DNA of 64,000 nt from Frankia nepalensis (GTDB lineage Bacteria; Actinomycetota; Actinomycetes; Frankiales; Frankiaceae). Made by a program: the position numbers and the translations under genes. Within the stretch, counting starts at the first letter, position 1. Each line of letters starts with the position of its first letter. The DNA is taken from assembly GCF_016786325.1 (NCBI RefSeq), contig NZ_JADWYU010000096.1:1-64000 (forward strand). Reading direction: 5' to 3'. Below the pieces are notes generated by a model, which saw only the letters and a list, made by a program, of their open reading frames with translations, made no database searches and was not told the DNA's origin. Shown here piece by piece: positions 9,943-17,646 of the stretch.

Positions 9943-10413
9943 CTACGCCGCTCCGGTCGGCTGCATGCGAGTGCTGATCGCCAGCCGGTTCCACACGTTG
10001 ATCGTGCTGATCGCGGTCAACAGCTTGACGATCTCCTCCTCGGAGAACGAGGCACGCACGCGGTCCCACAGGGCGTCGCTGACGCCACCCTGGCTGATGA
10101 GGGTCACCGCCTCGGTCAGCGCCAGGGCCGCCTGCTCCCGCTCGCTGAACAGGCCGTCGACCTCGTGCCACGCCCGCAGCACATCAAGCCGCAGTTGCGA
10201 CTCACCCTGCTCGCGGGCGTCCCGGTAGTGCATGTCCAGGCAGAAGGCGCACCCGTTGATCTGCGACGCCCGGATCTTGATCAGCTCGTAGAGGCCGGGT
10301 TCCAGGCCGCTGCGGCGCACGTAGCTCTCCATACCCAGCACAGCCTTGTACGCCGCCGGATCGATCTCCCCCGGCGACAGCCGCTGGCCCTTTGTGGTGA
10401 CTGCCTGCGCCAT
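9943..10413 (-). CDS. carboxymuconolactone decarboxylase / AhpD-like protein
   Basis: This 156-residue all-helical protein has the AhpD signature INGCAFCLDMH with Cys55, Cys58 and His62, the thiol pair and histidine used in alkylhydroperoxidase D proteins to reduce peroxides or peroxiredoxin partners. The remaining sequence (SEREQAALALTEAVTLI and INVWNRLAI) matches the CMD family. ATG 10413 follows a GGAGA site. It stands alone on the reverse strand. An antioxidant role is inferred from the CxxC motif; many relatives are uncharacterised. Confidence 0.88.
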   Translation of the reverse strand: MAQAVTTKGQRLSPGEIDPAAYKAVLGMESYVRRSGLEPGLYELIKIRASQINGCAFCLDMHYRDAREQGESQLRLDVLRAWHEVDGLFSEREQAALALTEAVTLISQGGVSDALWDRVRASFSEEEIVKLLTAISTINVWNRLAISTRMQPTGAA

Positions 10414-10793
10414 GGCAGGTCTCCTCACGTCGATGTTGGTCAACATCCCGACCGGCACTCGCCGATCGCCAAACGGGTTGACGAGACGCCATCGACTTGT
10501 GTGACATCGCGCCGCGATCGGCCTCCTCCGCGAACTATCGAGGCCGCGACCGTCACTCATCAAACCGATCACGCCACTGCGCGCGACCGCCGCGCCCATC
10601 GACCCAGGCCACCGGCCCTGGGCCACTTTGGGCACCCCGCCCGGCCGGCCGCTACGGCCGCGACCGCCCTGACCAGGGCGGATGACATATCCGGTAGGCG
10701 CGGTGTCCAGGCCTGTCGCTCGGGCTCGCGCTTCGCGCGCAGCGCCTTTCCTCCCCCGCGGAAATGTCAGTGGCCCCCGCTACTGTGCGGCGC
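10414..10793. other. intergenic region between divergent genes
   Basis: This 380-base region separates the AhpD-like gene from the forward pair at 10794. No protein-coding frame is convincing. TACTGT at 10781-10786 lies seven bases before the ATG at 10794 and could be a -10 element giving a nearly leaderless transcript, although no good -35 hexamer is seen. Confidence 0.35.
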
Positions 10794-11120
10794 ATGTACC
10801 GACAGGGAGACATCCTCATCCTGCCCGTCCTCGAGCAGGATGTTCCGGACAGCGCGCGGGACCTTCCGTCCGCGCCGCGCGACGACCGGGGACGCCTGGT
10901 GCTCGCCCTCGGCGAGGCCACCGGTCACGCGCACGCGATCGCCGGGCCTGGCACCCTGCTGCGCGCCTCCGCCCCGCTGGTCCCCGACTACCTGCACCTG
11001 CCCTCCGGTGGGCGGCTGGTGCACGAGGAGCATGCCCCGATCTCGTTGCCCAAGGGCTGGTTCCGGGTCATCCGCCAGCGCGAGTACGTACCGGGCGCCG
11101 TCCGCGTCGTCGCCGACTGA
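10794..11120 (+). CDS. small hypothetical protein next to DUF6745 gene
   Basis: The 108-residue soluble protein begins MYRQGDILILPV and contains LALGEATGHAHAI, a segment with two histidines and an acid, then a HLPSGGRLVHEEHAPI segment. Short all-beta proteins with this layout occur beside DUF6745 genes; no biochemical role is known to me. There is no Shine-Dalgarno sequence before ATG 10794, but a TACTGT box seven bases upstream suggests a leaderless transcript. It is followed after 46 bases by the DUF6745 gene on the same strand, and both converge on the STM4011-4015 operon, so a shared function is possible. Confidence 0.65.
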   Translation: MYRQGDILILPVLEQDVPDSARDLPSAPRDDRGRLVLALGEATGHAHAIAGPGTLLRASAPLVPDYLHLPSGGRLVHEEHAPISLPKGWFRVIRQREYVPGAVRVVAD

Positions 11121-11166
11121 GCGGGCCGCGGACGCAACGATGCGAAACGCTGAGCGGAGGATGTCC

Positions 11167-12381
11167 GTGCCGACCATGCCTGCCCCGGCCGCCGCGTACC
11201 CGGGCCCGGACCAGGCCGTCGCGTCCGGCCCGGTCCGGGCGCGATCGCGCGCGGACGTCGCCCTTGAATGGCAGTCTGTCGCCTTCTCGTCTGGCCCTAC
11301 CGGACCCACCGAACGCGATCGGGCCGAGTCGGGCATCCACGCCGCCTACACCGCCGCGGGTCTGGCGCCTCCCGAGCACTTCATCTGGGTGCCCTCTCCC
11401 GTTCGCGGGGCGATCGCCGCCGCCCTGCTCGCGGGCCATGGGGATGTCCTGCGCCAGTCGCGTCCGAAGCTGACCGAGAGGCTGGGCGCGGACGTCGAGG
11501 CGGTGACGCCGCTGATCGAGGGGGCCGCCGCTGGGGCGAGCGTTCGGGAGGTCGTACGCACTCGCCCGTGGGAGAGCGCGCGGGCCTCCGCGTGTTCTGG
11601 ACTGGGGCCGCGAGGGTGGGCGCGTGCCTGGGGCGAGACCGGCGGCAGGCTGTGGGCCCAGGTCGACAACCTGGTCTCGCGGGTTCGAGGCGCGATCGGT
11701 GACCTGGCCGGTGACGAGCGCGGGACCGCCACCCTGCTGCGCGGCGCCACCCTCGACGCGATCCTCGGCCAGCACGACGCTCCTTGGCTCTCGCTGTTCG
11801 ACTCCCTCGGCCACCTGGACACGGCGAGCCACCCAGGGGGTTCCCTGTCCTCGATGGCGCGGGTCGCGCGGGTGGCGGGTTGGTGGTGGCCATACGAGCG
11901 GATCGTGATCGTCTCCGAGCGCCCTGTCGACCTGGACCGCGACGAGTCGGGCCGCCTGCACCGGGGCGACGGACCCGCCCTGGCCTACGCCGACGGGTTC
12001 GCCCTGCACGCGTGGCGTGGCATGCCGATACCGGCGGGATTCGTCGAGTCGCTGACCGACCTGTCCCCGTCCCGGATCGAGGCCGAGACCAACGCCGAGC
12101 AGCGCCGGATCATGCTGGAGATCTACGGCTACGACCGCTACCTGGCCGAGTGCGGCGCCGAGCCCGTCCACCGCGACGAAACGGGCACGCTCTGGCGGAT
12201 CGTCCTCCGTCGCGACGAGCCCATCACCCTGGTCGAGGTGGTCAACTCCACCCCCGAACCGGACGGCTCCCGCCGCACCTACTTCCTCCGCGTCCCTCCC
12301 CGGACCCGCACCGCCCGGGAGGGAGTCGCCTGGACGTTCGGCCTCGCGGAAGACGACTACTACCCGGAGAACGAGACCTGA
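11167..12381 (+). CDS. DUF6745 domain-containing protein
   Basis: The product of about 404 residues matches what I recall of DUF6745: WWWPYERIVIVSERP, then DESGRLHRGDGPALAYADG and the FALHAWRGMPIPAGFVE segment in its second half, with a C-terminus on an EEDDYYP-like acidic end. The family is widespread in actinobacteria and has no known function; the GRLH..DGPA motif resembles short MORN-like repeats. The GTG at 11167 is chosen because GGAGG lies six bases upstream; ATGs at 11140, 11161 and 11176 are less well spaced. It ends 71 bases before the convergent STM4011-like gene, with a strong terminator hairpin between. Confidence 0.75.
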   Translation: MPTMPAPAAAYPGPDQAVASGPVRARSRADVALEWQSVAFSSGPTGPTERDRAESGIHAAYTAAGLAPPEHFIWVPSPVRGAIAAALLAGHGDVLRQSRPKLTERLGADVEAVTPLIEGAAAGASVREVVRTRPWESARASACSGLGPRGWARAWGETGGRLWAQVDNLVSRVRGAIGDLAGDERGTATLLRGATLDAILGQHDAPWLSLFDSLGHLDTASHPGGSLSSMARVARVAGWWWPYERIVIVSERPVDLDRDESGRLHRGDGPALAYADGFALHAWRGMPIPAGFVESLTDLSPSRIEAETNAEQRRIMLEIYGYDRYLAECGAEPVHRDETGTLWRIVLRRDEPITLVEVVNSTPEPDGSRRTYFLRVPPRTRTAREGVAWTFGLAEDDYYPENET

Positions 12382-12391
12382 CGAGGTGCCT

Positions 12392-12420
12392 CCCGGTGAA
12401 CGCTTCCGCCGTTCACCGGG
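12392..12420. terminator. bidirectional terminator hairpin
   Basis: An 11-bp perfect stem (CCCGGTGAACG at 12392-12402 with CGTTCACCGGG at 12410-12420) closes a 7-base loop between two convergent genes. There is no U-tract, as usual in actinobacteria. It can serve both the DUF6745 gene and the STM4011-4015 operon. Confidence 0.75.
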
Positions 12421-12452
12421 GCCGTCGCGTCCGCGGCGCGTCTCGTGGGCTT

Positions 12453-13394
12453 TCAGTCGCGCGGATCGAGACCATGAGACGTGCCCCGGCGCGGCCAGGC
12501 GACGGGGATGCGTTCCAGGATCCCACCCGCGAATGTGCCGTAGAGGCCGAGCGGTTCCAGGTGGACGTAGCCGATGTGGCAGTCGCACATGTCCAGGGGG
12601 CATGGCCGGGGGCGCAGTGCCGCGCGGAACGAGCCGTCGTAGAGGTTTCCCAGGGCGGTCGGGACGAAATGGCAGCGCCGTACCGTACCTTCGCCGTCCA
12701 CGGACACGACGGTTTCGCCGGTTCGGCAGGGCAGGCCGTGGCTGGGGTGCGGGTCGCGGCTGTAGGAGAAGAGTGGGTCGATCTCCGTCCAGTGGGCGGC
12801 CTCGGCGTCGGTGTAGACGCGGCCCTCGGCCGCGTTCACCCACAGGTAGACGGTGCCGGGGAGATCTGCGCGCAGACGGCGCGCGGCGGCCAGGTGATCG
12901 GGCTGCCCCACGACGCCGACGCTGAAGCGCACTCCACGTTCGGCCAGGTCAAGACATTTTCCGAGGAAATGCCCGTACGGCACCTGGCTCGGGTGGTAGG
13001 TGCCCCACAGCGCGAGCCGGGACAGATCCGCGTCGGCCGTCCAGGCGACGCGGTGGCTGAGGTTGGTCTGGATCGCGACGCGTTCGACCCGCGGCAGGTG
13101 GCTGAGCTCCACCAACGCCCGCCGGTACCAGGAACGGGTCAGGCCCTCACCCCACGGTGTGAACAGCACCGAGACGCCCTGGCGCTGCTCTCTGACCCAG
13201 TCGGTGAAACGCTCCAGCGCCGCCCGGTCCGACCGCAGCTGCTCGGGTGTGTCCCGCCGCTTCGCGAACGGACAGTAAGGGCAGTCGTAGTCGCAACTGG
13301 CCAGTGGCCCGCGGTAGAGGATCGTCAGGTGCCGCGTCTGAGCCTCCTCCTGAGGGGGAGCGGCGGGCGTCCCGTCGTGGTGGGGAAGTGTCAT
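12453..13394 (-). CDS. STM4011 family radical SAM protein
   Basis: The 313-residue protein carries the radical SAM cluster motif CDYDCPYC (Cys34, Cys38, Cys41), which binds a [4Fe-4S] cluster and S-adenosylmethionine. A second set of cysteines toward the C-terminus (a CRTGE turn, CHF, then CPLDMCDC) suggests an auxiliary iron-sulfur site like SPASM/twitch domains. Overall it matches the STM4011 family, named after a Salmonella locus and functionally uncharacterised. It is the last gene of a five-gene operon and its start codon shares one base with the stop of the STM4012-like gene (TGATG), indicating translational coupling. The substrate is unknown. Confidence 0.87.
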   Translation of the reverse strand: MTLPHHDGTPAAPPQEEAQTRHLTILYRGPLASCDYDCPYCPFAKRRDTPEQLRSDRAALERFTDWVREQRQGVSVLFTPWGEGLTRSWYRRALVELSHLPRVERVAIQTNLSHRVAWTADADLSRLALWGTYHPSQVPYGHFLGKCLDLAERGVRFSVGVVGQPDHLAAARRLRADLPGTVYLWVNAAEGRVYTDAEAAHWTEIDPLFSYSRDPHPSHGLPCRTGETVVSVDGEGTVRRCHFVPTALGNLYDGSFRAALRPRPCPLDMCDCHIGYVHLEPLGLYGTFAGGILERIPVAWPRRGTSHGLDPRD

Positions 13395-14689
13395 CAGCGG
13401 AGGGTGTAGCCGGTCATCAGGGCGCGAACCTGGGGCGAGAAGAGGGCCGGTCCTATGGCGTCGGAATGGGCCAGGCCTTCAGGCGTCAGCCGGATGGTGG
13501 TCGGGCCCTGCTCCAGCCAGCCGCGTTCGGAGAAGACGGTGAGGTCGAAGTCCGCGGTGACGTCGGTGTGGAAACGCTCGCGGTAGGCGGCGCGGTCGAG
13601 GCCTTCCGCCTGCAGCAACGACTGGATCAGGTGGCGTCGCGGGCGCTCGTCGTCGTCGAGGACGAAACCGACCCGGGCGCTGTCGAAGTCCGTTTCGTGA
13701 ACATAGTCGTCGATGATCGCGCGGACGTGCCTGGTGCCCACCGCGTACTCGAACGAGTAGTGCAGAGTCGAGGTATAGGAACGGGCGCCGCATCCCAGGC
13801 CGACCATTCCGTCGGTCTGGCAGCAGTACTCCGTCCCGGAGACACCGTCCCCGGACGGCAGGCGGAACATGCGCATGGAGACCTGCTCGTAACCGTTGGA
13901 CAGAAGGTGGTCCCGGCCGAGGCTGTAGAGATCCATGCGCTGGTCGTCCCAGTCGAGATCGCGGCGGGCCAAACCCGTCAGGGGGCGGACGTACAAGGGG
14001 TACAGGTACATCTCCTCGGGGCGCCAGGCCAGGCTGGCGTCCAGGGAATGCAGCCAGGTGGCGGGGGTCTGGCCATCGATGCCGTAGATGAGGTCGATGT
14101 TCAGCGTCTCGAAGCCGACCGCGCGGATGCGTTCCAGGGCTGACTCGACCTCGGCCCGTTTCTGGGGACGGCCGGCCGCGCGGGCCTCGGAGTCCAGAAA
14201 GCTCTGCACGCCGATCGAGACGCGGGTGGTACCGCGTTCGCGCAGGAGGGTGAGGCGGTCGGTGGTCGCGGTGGCGGGCGAGGTCTCCACCCCGAGCGGG
14301 ATGGCGCCGAGCGTGGCGAGGCGGGCGCCGATGTCACAGAGGCGTTCGAGTTCGAGGGCTGTCAGGTAGGTGGGCGTGCCGCCGCCGAAGGCCGCCGTGG
14401 CGAACGCGGCGTCCCCCAGGGCGTCGGCGACACAGGCAGCCTGGCGTTCAAGCGCGTCCAGATACGCGCCCGTGAGTTCCTCGGGTGCGCCCGTGCGGGT
14501 GAAGAGGTTGCAGAAACCACAGCGCATCTCGCAGAACGGGACATGCAGGTAGAGGAAGAGCGCGGACCGGTCCTCCGTGGCCCACACCTCTCGCAGGGAG
14601 GGGCGGGGCGACAGCGGGCGGTAGGCGGTCTTGTGCGGGTACGCGTAGACATAGTGCTGGTAGGGGCTGCGCTGGTCGGGGCCGGTCAT
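13394..14689 (-). CDS. STM4012 family radical SAM protein (HemN-like)
   Basis: This 431-residue protein has the radical SAM motif CEMRCGFC (Cys53, Cys57, Cys60) within LYLHVPFCEMRCGFC, the form used by HemN/HemW-type enzymes, plus the AFGGGTPTYL and NIDLIYGIDGQTP segments of that group and a C-terminal HemN-like domain. It fits the STM4012 family, always found with STM4011, 4013, 4014 and 4015 proteins. It is probably not coproporphyrinogen dehydrogenase; its reaction is unknown. It overlaps the upstream hydrolase gene by four bases (ATGA) and the downstream gene by one base. Confidence 0.87.
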   Translation of the reverse strand: MTGPDQRSPYQHYVYAYPHKTAYRPLSPRPSLREVWATEDRSALFLYLHVPFCEMRCGFCNLFTRTGAPEELTGAYLDALERQAACVADALGDAAFATAAFGGGTPTYLTALELERLCDIGARLATLGAIPLGVETSPATATTDRLTLLRERGTTRVSIGVQSFLDSEARAAGRPQKRAEVESALERIRAVGFETLNIDLIYGIDGQTPATWLHSLDASLAWRPEEMYLYPLYVRPLTGLARRDLDWDDQRMDLYSLGRDHLLSNGYEQVSMRMFRLPSGDGVSGTEYCCQTDGMVGLGCGARSYTSTLHYSFEYAVGTRHVRAIIDDYVHETDFDSARVGFVLDDDERPRRHLIQSLLQAEGLDRAAYRERFHTDVTADFDLTVFSERGWLEQGPTTIRLTPEGLAHSDAIGPALFSPQVRALMTGYTLR

Positions 14690-15501
14690 GGCAGAACGAA
14701 CTCCCCGTACGGGACGGTCCAGACGACCTCGTGGCCGAGGCGGTGGCCGGTGTGGCCGTCCTCGCCGTACGCGGTCCCGTGGTCCGAGCAGACGATCACG
14801 AAGCAGGGGCGGCGCATCAGGGCGAACAGGCGGCCGAGCTGCCGGTCGACGTGGCGGAGGGCCGCGGCGTGGGAGTCGCGCGAGTCGCCATGGTCGCGGG
14901 TGGCGCCGTCCAGGTAGAACCAGTTTGGCTGGTGCAGCGCGGCCACGTTGAGCAGGAGGAACACCCGTCGATCGGCGGGAAGCCGCCGCATCACCTCGCC
15001 TACCCGGTCGATCTGATTGGCGAGGGAATCGGGGTCGACCACGCCGAATCCGGGCTCCCAGTGGCTTTCGGCGAAGAGCGACGGGAGCGCGGACCCGAGC
15101 GGCGTGAGCTTGTTGAAGAAGCCCACGCCGCCCACACAGACCGTGTGATAGCCGACTTTCGCCAGGCCGGTCGGGATGTCCGCGGCGTCGAATGTCCAGG
15201 TGCCGGCGGCGGTGGTCTCGCTGCCGGGGAACCGTCCGGCGAACAGGCGCGGATGCGGGCCCGGACGGGCCGGTGTCGGCAGGAAGCCCGCGAGCATCGC
15301 GGTGTGCGCCGCGTAGGTGAAGCTGCCCGGGGTGTGGCGGCGTTCCCAGCGGCCGCCGGGCAGCAGGCCGCGAAGGGTGGGCGTCTCGCCGGCGGCGGCG
15401 AGTTCGGCCGCGACGTCGTAGCGCAGGGTGTCGAGCGTCACCAGCAGCAGATCGTGGCTGCCGATGACCTCGTTCATGTCACGGTTCATGTCACGGTTCA
15501 T
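14686..15501 (-). CDS. STM4013/SEN3800 family hydrolase (sulfatase/alkaline phosphatase fold)
   Basis: The 271-residue protein has the alkaline-phosphatase/sulfatase-superfamily pattern: LLLVTLDTLRYDVA near the N-terminus, a HTPGSFTYAAHTAML segment where the nucleophile usually sits, and CSDHGTAYGEDGHTGHR near the C-terminus with the metal-binding Asp-His pair. There is no signal peptide, so it is cytoplasmic, unusual for a sulfatase. It matches the STM4013 family. The start at 15501 makes an ATGA overlap with the STM4014-like stop. Three in-frame ATGs (15501, 15489, 15477) are created by a 12-base tandem repeat encoding MNRD twice. No sulfatase-type Cys-x-Pro-x-Arg motif is seen, so formylglycine activation is not expected. 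Confidence 0.83.
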   Translation of the reverse strand: MNRDMNRDMNEVIGSHDLLLVTLDTLRYDVAAELAAAGETPTLRGLLPGGRWERRHTPGSFTYAAHTAMLAGFLPTPARPGPHPRLFAGRFPGSETTAAGTWTFDAADIPTGLAKVGYHTVCVGGVGFFNKLTPLGSALPSLFAESHWEPGFGVVDPDSLANQIDRVGEVMRRLPADRRVFLLLNVAALHQPNWFYLDGATRDHGDSRDSHAAALRHVDRQLGRLFALMRRPCFVIVCSDHGTAYGEDGHTGHRLGHEVVWTVPYGEFVLP

Positions 15502-16568
15502 GCCGCGCAGGTCGCCAGCGCCGCGCTGACCTGGGCGGCGTAGGTGTCCAGGCCGTCGGCTCGGGTACCCGGCAGTCCGGTGGCCCCGGGCAGCAGGTCG
15601 CCGAACGCATTGACCTCGCCGACCGCGATCCGCCGCCAGCCGACCTGGATGAGCAGGTCGACACCGACCATCAGGCTGCCGGGAAAGCACGCCGCGGTCC
15701 GCGCGCACACCTCCAGGGCCCGTTCCCAGCCGGAAGGGCCGAGCGCGTCGCGCACCGCGCGCACGGAGCCGCGCACTCCGCCCAGGTGCAGGTTGGTCAT
15801 CGGGGAGCGGCTCGTCCGCGCGACGACATGGGTCGGCTCGCCCGCGATCACCACCACCCGCAGGTCGAGGACGCGGCCATCCAGCGCCGCCTTGGGCAGC
15901 CACCGCTCCACGTGCAGCCCGTCCGGCGCCAGCGCGTCGATCAGCGGCGCCACCTCGGACTCGGTCTCGTAGGTCTGGACGCGCAGCGAGTTGACGTAGC
16001 CGGTACCAGCGCGAGCGGCGGACGTGACGGCCTTGATCCGCCCGCTGGGCGCGGTCCGCAGCGCCACGACGCCGGAAGCGGACGACCCGTGCGCCGGTTT
16101 GACGAACACCTGGCGCATGCCCGCGTCCGCCATCCGTTCACGCAGATCGGCGTAGTCGCGGACGCGTGGCAGCGCCTCCGGGACGGGGACACCCGCCGCC
16201 TGGAGGCGAGCGTGGCAGCGCCTCTTGTCACACATCACGGCGATCTCGGGCACGTCGCCGAGTTGCCAGGCGCCCGCCCGCGCGGCCGCGGCGGCGACGC
16301 GCTCCAGGGCCGCGGTGAAGGACGCGTACCACCACGCGCCCCCGGCCACCCTGGCCGGATCACCCGGTCCGCGCAGCAGCGCGTCCACCTCGGCGTCGTC
16401 TCCGGGAGAGTCGATCCGCAGTGGTGAGTCGGGCACGATCGGCAGCTCACCGCCGCGCAGCACCTCCAGCCACGAGACGACACGAGGCCCGTCCAGGCCG
16501 GCCGAGCGGCACGCGGCGGCGAACATCTCGGTGCGCCGATCACCCGGCGTCCCGACCACGGTGAACAT
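15498..16568 (-). CDS. STM4014 family protein (ATP-grasp-like)
   Basis: The product of 356 residues resembles ATP-grasp carboxylate-amine ligases: DKRRCHARLQAAGVPVPEA opens the ATP-binding region (about residue 112), VFVKPAHGSSASGV supplies the flexible nucleotide-binding loop, and GVDLLI followed by VGEVNAFGDLLPG near the C-terminus matches the metal-binding Asp/Glu/Asn end of the fold. It fits the STM4014 family. An amide or peptide bond-forming role is inferred from the fold. ATG 16568 or the adjacent GTG 16571 both overlap the stop of a 39-codon ORF, so it is translationally coupled. In the operon it stands between the LRR protein and the hydrolase. Confidence 0.82.
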   Translation of the reverse strand: MFTVVGTPGDRRTEMFAAACRSAGLDGPRVVSWLEVLRGGELPIVPDSPLRIDSPGDDAEVDALLRGPGDPARVAGGAWWYASFTAALERVAAAAARAGAWQLGDVPEIAVMCDKRRCHARLQAAGVPVPEALPRVRDYADLRERMADAGMRQVFVKPAHGSSASGVVALRTAPSGRIKAVTSAARAGTGYVNSLRVQTYETESEVAPLIDALAPDGLHVERWLPKAALDGRVLDLRVVVIAGEPTHVVARTSRSPMTNLHLGGVRGSVRAVRDALGPSGWERALEVCARTAACFPGSLMVGVDLLIQVGWRRIAVGEVNAFGDLLPGATGLPGTRADGLDTYAAQVSAALATCAA

Positions 16569-16687
16569 CACGCGAAGGCGACGTCGGCGGCGGACGGGAG
16601 AGCGGCCTTCGTGCCGTCGAGTTCGATGACCGAGCGGCCGCCGAACTCCGCCGGATGATCACCGATGGTCACGGTGCCCCAGGTCAT
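16568..16687 (-). CDS. 39-residue ORF, apparent truncated STM4015-like N-terminus
   Basis: This short reading frame starts with an ATGA overlap with the STM4015 stop codon and ends in a TGA that overlaps the STM4014 start. It encodes a protein beginning MTWGTVTIGDHPAEFGGR. Its pattern (H-x-x-EF-GG-x-V, then LPSAADVAFA) lines up with the N-terminus of the neighbouring STM4015 protein (HLTEFAGKPV, then ASAGDVTWRVA). I infer a second STM4015 copy that was deleted down to its first 39 codons but kept in frame for translational coupling. It could instead be a genuine micropeptide. Confidence 0.6.
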   Translation of the reverse strand: MTWGTVTIGDHPAEFGGRSVIELDGTKAALPSAADVAFA

Positions 16688-17646
16688 TCGGAGACCGCGA
16701 TGTAGAACCAGTCGCCGTTGGGGCTTTCCTGCTCGTCAAGGTCGACCTCGACGCCGGGCAGGGAACCCCGCACACGATCCATCGTGGAGTCGGTCAGGAA
16801 GTGGTGGTGCAGGTCGAGCCGCCTGAGGTGCGTGAGCGGCTGGCCGGACAGCAGCGACTCGGCGCCCCGGTCGGTGAGCGCCCCCATGGCCAGGCTGAGC
16901 GACTCCAGTCGCGCGACGATCGGCGCGCCCGCGACCGCCGAGGCGACCTCGTCCGCTATCTCGGCGTCCTCCAGCCCCAGGTGCCGCAGCGCGGGCAGCC
17001 GTTCCCCGTCCAGGACCCCCGCCAGATCGGCCGTGGTCGCGTCGCCACCGTAGTTGTCGGTGCCCAGCCACAGGTCGAGGTGCTCCAGGGCAGGAAGGTC
17101 GCTCTCGCCCACAGCCCGTACCACCGTGGCGGGCAGCCCACCCGACTCGAACCGCAGGGTCCGCAGGACACGGCTCTGGAAGGGGCGCAGCTCCAGCCCC
17201 TCGCCCCCACGGACCTCGAGGTGTTCAAGACCGGGGAACGCGTTGAAGAGGCGCGTGACGTCGGACTGCTCGATCCAGGAGATCTCCGCCTCTTCCATCA
17301 CGATGTCGCCCAGGAACAGCGCGCGGAGCGCGGGCAGCCGGCCGGCCGCTCCCACCAGCAGTTCCACCGGGTCGGGGACGCCCTTGTCGTAGGAGGCCCC
17401 CCAGTAGCCGATGACGAGATGGGTCACCTCGGCCGTCTCGACCTCGTCCAGGAACTTCTGGAAGACGTCGCCGAACCCGGGACCGTCGAACCAGGTAGCG
17501 ACCCGCCAGGTGACGTCACCCGCCGAGGCTGGAGGTTCGAGGAAGTTCGGCCCATAGTAATCGGAAGAGGACTCGCCGTCGTGCTCGTAACGGAAGTTGG
17601 CCACCGGCTTCCCGGCGAACTCGGTGAGGTGCTCGTTGATCGTCAT
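16684..17646 (-). CDS. STM4015 family protein (leucine-rich repeats)
   Basis: The 320-residue soluble protein begins MTINEHLTEFAGKPVANF and continues into at least five leucine-rich repeats from about residue 95 (for example LPALRALFLGDI, FPGLEHLEVRGG, LPALEHLDLWLG, LPALRHLGLEDA, LTHLRRLDLHHHFLTD), so it should form a solenoid for protein binding. It matches the STM4015 family found with the radical SAM pair. ATG 17646 follows an AAGGGA site and is taken as the first gene of the operon; the open frame upstream is Arg/Pro-rich and non-coding in character. The LRR protein could be a scaffold or substrate-recognition unit for the downstream enzymes. Confidence 0.85.
   Translation of the reverse strand: MTINEHLTEFAGKPVANFRYEHDGESSSDYYGPNFLEPPASAGDVTWRVATWFDGPGFGDVFQKFLDEVETAEVTHLVIGYWGASYDKGVPDPVELLVGAAGRLPALRALFLGDIVMEEAEISWIEQSDVTRLFNAFPGLEHLEVRGGEGLELRPFQSRVLRTLRFESGGLPATVVRAVGESDLPALEHLDLWLGTDNYGGDATTADLAGVLDGERLPALRHLGLEDAEIADEVASAVAGAPIVARLESLSLAMGALTDRGAESLLSGQPLTHLRRLDLHHHFLTDSTMDRVRGSLPGVEVDLDEQESPNGDWFYIAVSE

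Follow-up and report, generated by a model that had tools for sequence, protein, structure and literature searches.

The 64,000-nucleotide stretch of Frankia nepalensis DNA analysed in this study (contig NZ_JADWYU010000096.1, positions 1 to 64,000, hereafter the window) has 72% G+C, belongs to contig C376 in a genome of 10.7 Mb and carries a minus-strand operon (17646-12453) in which the genes STM4015, STM4014, STM4013, STM4012 and STM4011 follow one another in this order. Comparison of sequences and a structural model indicate that the leucine-rich repeat (LRR) protein STM4015 is probably the substrate of the operon; it would act as a carrier or precursor of protein size, and the neighbouring enzymes would modify its C-terminal Glu tail. 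With a confidence that stops a little short of even, we further propose that STM4011-4015 represents a pan-bacterial system in which one enzyme set serves several multi-copy LRR proteins and assembles, on their C-terminal Glu tails, a modified group that might be a cofactor or reactive warhead; such a class of protein-borne modification is not described in the literature searched.

All five products scored above the curated cut-offs of NCBIfam and their genes are adjacent, with overlaps between STM4014 and STM4013, STM4013 and STM4012, and STM4012 and STM4011 that fit a coupled operon.

16684..17646, minus strand: STM4015 family LRR protein, 320 residues, proposed substrate (carrier or precursor); NF038076, 368.6 bits, cut-off 275
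16687..16710, minus strand: STM4015 C-terminal tail, last 8 codons W-F-Y-I-A-V-S-E, proposed modification site with the terminal Glu as proposed acceptor; alignment and end-position counts over 149 STM4015 open reading frames (ORFs)
15498..16571, minus strand: STM4014, predicted RimK/LysX-like ATP-grasp ligase; NF038074, 438.1 bits, cut-off 175; AlphaFold2 model with ArgX:LysW, LysX and RimK as nearest folds
14686..15477, minus strand: STM4013, alkaline-phosphatase-superfamily hydrolase, nucleotide pyrophosphatase/phosphodiesterase (NPP)-like, predicted Thr nucleophile, start picked by homology; NF038075, 408.6 bits, cut-off 250; aligned with NPP 2gsn
13394..14689, minus strand: STM4012, HemN-like radical S-adenosylmethionine (SAM) protein, Cys-x3-Cys-x2-Cys; NF006067, 627.8 bits, cut-off 380; HemN 1olt, NocN 9p2u
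12453..13394, minus strand: STM4011, radical SAM protein, five additional invariant Cys, SPASM/Twitch-like; NF038073, 401.6 bits, cut-off 200; SkfB 6efn

An earlier reading of this DNA from its letters (the original prediction) had named these genes and a neighbouring DUF6745 gene and had given their position, orientation and tight coupling, all of which agree with the NCBIfam and PF20530 scores above cut-off and with the gene overlaps.

The proposal starts from the C-terminus of STM4015, which we compared among 149 ORFs (above 80 bits against an STM4015 profile built in this analysis) from 112 stretches and nine phyla. These stretches comprise 80 loci from a scan of genome contigs with an STM4013 alignment (the best 80 of at least 576 relatives), 10 plasmid stretches, 21 genome stretches and the window. 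The aligned proteins share an acidic linker of varying length, probably flexible, followed exactly at the C-terminus by a conserved heptapeptide of consensus R-[Y/F]-x-[A/S]-[V/L/I]-x-Glu-COOH. The terminal residue is Glu in 145 of the 149; counting back from the end, position -2 is Ser or Thr in 98 (Gly, Ala or other in 51), position -3 is Val, Leu or Ile in 142, position -4 is Ala or Ser in 126, position -6 is aromatic in 143 (Tyr 130, Phe 13), and position -7 is Arg in 130, the window protein carrying Phe there instead of the usual Arg. The acidic fraction directly before the tail is 0.46, compared with 0.15 elsewhere in the protein. Fifty of the ORFs derive from Paenibacillaceae loci (L112-L161), and outside these loci terminal Glu is found in 95 of 99. 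Owing to the variation at -2 and -6, Glu is the sole near-constant side chain of the tail, and because Phe substitutes for Tyr in 13 sequences, the aromatic residue at -6 may be a recognition point instead of the target.

By sequence, this conserved tail is also exclusive to STM4015. Among 13,917 stop-ended ORFs of the 112 stretches, 122 end in a simple version of the tail motif; 121 of these are STM4015, and the last is an unrelated 70-residue ORF. A stricter motif, written as a DNA pattern and applied to 22 whole genomes, occurred at 29 places, 21 of which are STM4015 ends (a backward control of the pattern gave 16 hits). Six of the remaining eight read TGG in place of a stop, and two end in TGA, one of them in a 64-residue open frame without match to the profiles of the set and the other outside any motif-bearing open frame of at least 40 residues. 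A separate precursor peptide was rejected, as the single unrelated 70-residue ORF is the only carrier of the motif outside STM4015 in the 112 stretches. The original prediction had found no obvious precursor and had advised searching neighbouring genes of relatives for a substrate peptide; that search yielded no separate peptide, the tail motif pointing to STM4015, and the absence of a precursor was very probably a misjudgement, since comparison of the C-termini suggests that the LRR protein fills the role of precursor or carrier.

One small frame of the window was considered separately. A 39-codon ORF (16568-16687, minus strand) extends over both the STM4015 stop and the STM4014 start, and its beginning is similar to the STM4015 N-terminus (T-I-x-[DE]-H-x-x-E-F-x-G). 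It was rejected as a separate precursor peptide because STM4015 and STM4014 touch in loci L062 and L068, leaving no space for it, and it may be a remnant of a second STM4015 copy. At the equivalent position, genome G004 (L063) has a 65-codon ORF.

Gene copies follow a pattern of their own. In a sample of 196 genomes taken around the window's own genome, 40 STM4015 genes above cut-off were identified in 23 genomes, 11 of which carry two to five (five in tandem in G087), and STM4014 above cut-off is single in each of 22 genomes. Fourteen genomes picked from the loci for diversity contain 37 STM4015 matches (one a fragment) versus 14 for STM4014, one each. Four actinobacterial genomes encode an additional STM4015 away from the locus, on another contig or 100 kb away, with terminal Glu and an aromatic residue at -6 in all four and no other gene of the set within 6-8 kb around; off-locus copies in Streptomyces cadmiisoli and Embleya likewise end in Glu with an aromatic residue at -6. 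One Calothrix genome has seven STM4015 genes, of which three lie some 4 Mb away from the enzyme genes, with no other gene of the set in 16 kb; the tail is present in two of these three and absent from one. Paralogs within a locus have a mean likeness of 54% in the body versus 67% in the last seven residues, and the tail exceeds the body in 54 of 66 pairs. N-terminal of the LRR part, the domains vary, from WGR plus TIGR02996 in a myxobacterium to HEAT-like in a cyanobacterium. Together, copies, orphans and paralogs form the pattern expected if one maturation set serves several substrates. G028 is the one relative that has STM4015 and no STM4014 above cut-off; its STM4015 ends without the tail, but the contig breaks off at that point, so the case carries no weight. 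G050 and G184 each gave a weak hit to STM4015 that reflects a generic LRR match, and these two were left uncounted.

A plasmid of Calothrix sp. PCC 7716 (L109:2014-3288) encodes an STM4015-like hypothetical protein with the tail RYCSVAE, and the ten further annotated genes in the 11 kb covered include none that bears the name of a set gene.

The enzyme next to STM4015 was modelled with AlphaFold2 from 30 STM4014 sequences (mean predicted local distance difference test score, pLDDT, 93.3; predicted template modelling score 0.92). In Foldseek, the best PDB match of the model is the ArgX:LysW complex (3vpb, 3.4e-14), followed by DcsG, LysX/ArgX with LysW-gamma-AAA, the graspetide ligase PsnB, LysX and RimK. 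VIA-align gave Z scores of 24.0 for ArgX (root-mean-square deviation 2.8, 271 aligned), 23.7 for LysX and 23.4-22.5 for RimK, rows within 1 Z unit being tied. A sequence profile ranked an inositol phosphate kinase first and also listed LysX and RimK among its top matches, at marginal E values (7e-4 to 3e-3). Residues K116, K158, E222, D236, R238, D305 and N321 are invariant in 30 rows, and we take them to be the expected ATP- and metal-binding residues of ATP-grasp enzymes. By its modelled fold, STM4014 is a RimK/LysX-like ATP-grasp ligase. LysX links aminoadipate, through its amino group, to LysW at the gamma-carboxyl of the C-terminal Glu, and LysW proteins terminate in EDWGE (PMC10433800); RimK extends S6 with glutamate at the C-terminus (cited in PMC8939145). 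The core of our argument is that the nearest folds include two enzymes acting on a protein C-terminal Glu and the adjacent STM4015 ends in a near-invariant Glu.

The other three enzymes could be placed in families by sequence. STM4012 is nearest to HemN (1olt, 1.6e-57) and NocN (9p2u, 2.9e-36; a radical SAM methyltransferase according to the PDB entry name), stays below the equivalog cut-offs of HemW (133.9 versus 205.4 bits) and HemN (122.6 versus 324.95), and appears HemN/class-C-methylase-like. STM4011, with eight invariant Cys, matches SkfB only (6efn, 3.2e-4) and appears SPASM/Twitch-like. The two thus resemble enzymes, SkfB and NocN, that act on ribosomally synthesized and post-translationally modified peptides (RiPPs). 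STM4013 matches nucleotide phosphodiesterases, its Asp, Thr and Asp-His-Gly aligning with those of NPP 2gsn. Sulfatases carry the formylglycine motif Cys/Ser-x-Pro-x-Arg; at the corresponding position STM4013 has an invariant Phe-Thr, with neither Cys nor Ser and its Thr aligned with the NPP Thr, so that it does not qualify as a formylglycine sulfatase by sequence and the original description as a sulfatase-fold hydrolase devoid of formylglycine holds.

Sequences and model directly support the tail, its exclusiveness, the copy numbers, the STM4014 fold and the family of each enzyme, and from these we infer the following scheme. The LRR domain of STM4015 would serve as a large recognition or presentation domain, followed by the acidic linker and the near-fixed heptapeptide. 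STM4014 would turn the carboxylate of the C-terminal Glu, the putative acceptor, into an acyl phosphate and attach an amine-bearing group; STM4011 and STM4012 would subsequently modify the tail or the attached group, and the phosphodiesterase-like STM4013 might trim or transfer a phosphorylated group. The added group and the order of these steps are conjectural, and the product might be kept on the protein or released from it. One enzyme set would handle one to seven STM4015 proteins, some of them encoded elsewhere in the genome. In its gene position, copy number and tail, STM4015 would suit a RiPP precursor, provided that the presumed modification exists. Of the modified small molecule or RiPP-like product originally envisaged, the RiPP-like part is supported by the enzyme relatives SkfB, NocN and RimK/LysX/PsnB.

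Several results weigh against this scheme. Four of the 149 STM4015 ORFs end without Glu, all from multi-copy loci (L163, L172, L174 and L185), and the Salmonella protein keeps the pattern in its last residues (T-E) only. DcsG (21.9), PPIP5K (21.8) and glutathione synthetase (21.4) are only 2-3 Z units behind in VIA-align, and STM4014 falls far under the NCBIfam cut-offs for RimK (19 versus 143.4 bits) and LysX (14.6 versus 275.6). A Bacteroides finegoldii plasmid (L037) keeps the tail, together with STM4014 and STM4011, though STM4013 is a fragment and STM4012 was not found; this locus is a reduced or decayed version of the set. Loci L165, L167, L180 and L182 are without STM4015 within the compared stretch. 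No protease or RiPP recognition element is named in the Pfam/NCBIfam output, with no dedicated search for the latter made, and a constant C-terminus could be a docking signal.

The best-surviving alternative, which we nevertheless regard as unlikely, is a RiPP-like pathway without an outside group, in which the tail is the core and the radical SAM enzymes and STM4014 form an internal cross-link, lactam or lactone, for example from the terminal Glu to Ser/Thr at -2 or to the aromatic residue at -6, perhaps cleaved off later. Such chemistry would suit the match of the STM4014 model to PsnB, the RiPP substrates of SkfB and NocN, and the Ser or Thr at -2 in 98 of the proteins. However, -2 differs in the other 51 and Phe replaces Tyr at -6 in 13, PsnB ranks below ArgX/LysX in Foldseek, and the Pfam/NCBIfam output contains no protease for the cleavage.

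The tail might also be a docking, localization or degradation signal, with STM4015 proteins as adaptors or sensors that bind some partner, among the set's enzymes or outside them, and with the enzymes making an unrelated product. LRR, WGR and HEAT-type domains suit binding, and docking peptides also look like a fixed C-terminus behind an acidic linker; yet this explanation, which we judge improbable, leaves unaccounted for why the adjacent ligase is nearest to enzymes acting on a C-terminal Glu, and up to seven adaptors for one enzyme set would be unusual. That the four enzymes produce a free small molecule, with STM4015 as bystander or regulator, is very unlikely, as their small-molecule-acting relatives (HemN, NPP, glutathione synthetase) fit but the multi-copy, tandem and orphan STM4015 genes and the fixed tail are left unexplained.

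With STM4015 as the proposed substrate, the closest known analogue is the LysW/ArgW and LysX/ArgX system, which has the nearest ligase fold and an acidic carrier protein with a conserved terminal Glu; LysW is a small zinc protein with an EDWGE end (PMC10433800), whereas STM4015 belongs to the LRR proteins and its end reads R-[YF]-x-[AS]-[VL]-x-E. Judged by zinc-binding Cys and a C-terminal EDWGE, STM4015 is not a LysW-type carrier. RimK shares the ligase fold, a folded protein substrate and action at the C-terminus (cited in PMC8939145), but it acts on one ribosomal protein, whereas STM4014 shares its operon with two radical SAM enzymes and has a RimK score far below cut-off. Graspetides and radical SAM RiPPs (PsnB, SkfB, NocN) offer a related ligase fold and radical SAM enzymes; their precursors are short, whereas here a folded LRR protein has an almost fixed tail. 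The LysW/LysX pathway is not known to have radical SAM partners. PEARL pathways (pearlins; PMC12715798) are similar in that a reusable scaffold receives an ATP-dependent addition at its C-terminus and tailoring follows, whereas PEARLs are lantibiotic-dehydratase-like and use aminoacyl-tRNA, and their scaffolds are peptides. By analogy, STM4011-4015 might work like the LysW/LysX or PEARL pathways, yet it lacks their defining features, having no EDWGE zinc carrier and scoring below the RimK/LysX cut-offs.

The STM4011-4015 gene families are named but without function. The STM401x genes appear in two papers of the accessible literature, as table entries only (sigma-54 binding sites; a selection study), the name PRK08208 occurs in one paper, and the main text of a graspetide survey (PMC8939145) contains no "LRR", "leucine-rich" or "STM40". 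In the open-licence PubMed Central literature, whose coverage leaves most subscription papers and preprints outside, no description of the set as a modification system was found, in keeping with the original remark that it has no described function; the names DUF6745, the NF accessions and the family names were not found there, and no LRR-plus-radical-SAM system was seen. The proposal turns an orphan operon of at least nine phyla, Salmonella included, into a question for one experiment, the mass of the STM4015 C-terminal peptide; should a modification be present, a folded repeat-protein scaffold would open to radical SAM and ATP-grasp chemistry, with the LRR paralogs as ready-made substrates.

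The recurrence of the set, claimed from the outset, is confirmed by the at least 576 STM4013 relatives of the single genome-contig scan. Record titles and plasmid annotation place the set, complete or largely so, in Actinomycetota, Deinococcota, Pseudomonadota, Bacillota, Bacteroidota, Cyanobacteriota, Myxococcota, Chloroflexota and Planctomycetota, that is, at least nine phyla. For Escherichia coli, a collection of 5,426 genomes gave no near match to the Salmonella locus. Additional pathway genes conserved beside the set were considered and rejected: the clusters of neighbouring ORFs share nothing across phyla and consist of transporters, a HAD hydrolase, lineage-specific neighbours and antisense artefacts. 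A defence role was likewise rejected, PADLOC giving no match except a marginal radical SAM stretch. Two records call for caution. Locus L177 is titled Comamonas sp. KCTC 72670, and its gene order and neighbours fit the Myxococcus loci L164, L172 and L181, so that the label or assembly may be wrong. A 5.9-kb record named Salmonella phage S.Kent 1-2-1 (OR850900.1, H28) encodes an STM4012 relative and is probably bacterial DNA inside a phage collection.

Two plus-strand genes of the window converge on the operon, as originally described.

11161..12381, plus strand: DUF6745 protein, convergent, optional accessory, start uncertain; PF20530, 338 bits, Pfam gathering cut-off 27
10764..11120, plus strand: 118-residue DUF6745 partner, conserved His/Glu cluster, all-beta model (pLDDT 82); a relative adjoins DUF6745 in 18 of 18 loci

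DUF6745 scored above cut-off in 14 of the 196 genomes. Each of the nine strong hits (E below 1e-90) has STM4014 at most about 6 kb away, unlike any of the weaker hits, which indicates that one DUF6745 subfamily belongs with the set; it stands beside the set in nine of the 22 STM4014-bearing genomes. Besides the window, DUF6745 occurs in 18 of 111 loci, which belong to Actinomycetota, Deinococcus, Methylobacterium and Chloroflexota; the Paenibacillus, cyanobacterial and myxobacterial loci of the 112 stretches showed no DUF6745. The association is therefore non-random, and the random co-occurrence that the original prediction had wanted checked was not upheld, but DUF6745 is an optional accessory. 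DUF6745 was rejected as a second tail-bearing substrate, most rows ending in Y-x-P-x-x-[E/Q]-T and not in the tail. The partner model had no clear match (best Foldseek E 0.98, best Z 3.4, some cupins at Z 2.1-2.5). Loci L048-L051 contain the weaker DUF6745 subfamily and a small partner without the set. DUF6745 and the small partner also match PHROG families of unknown function (phrog_31813 and phrog_27831), so the pair is known from phages as well. Next to these genes, the product of a minus-strand ORF (9943-10635) contains C-x-x-C-x-x-x-H and is presumably AhpD/carboxymuconolactone-decarboxylase-like by this motif.

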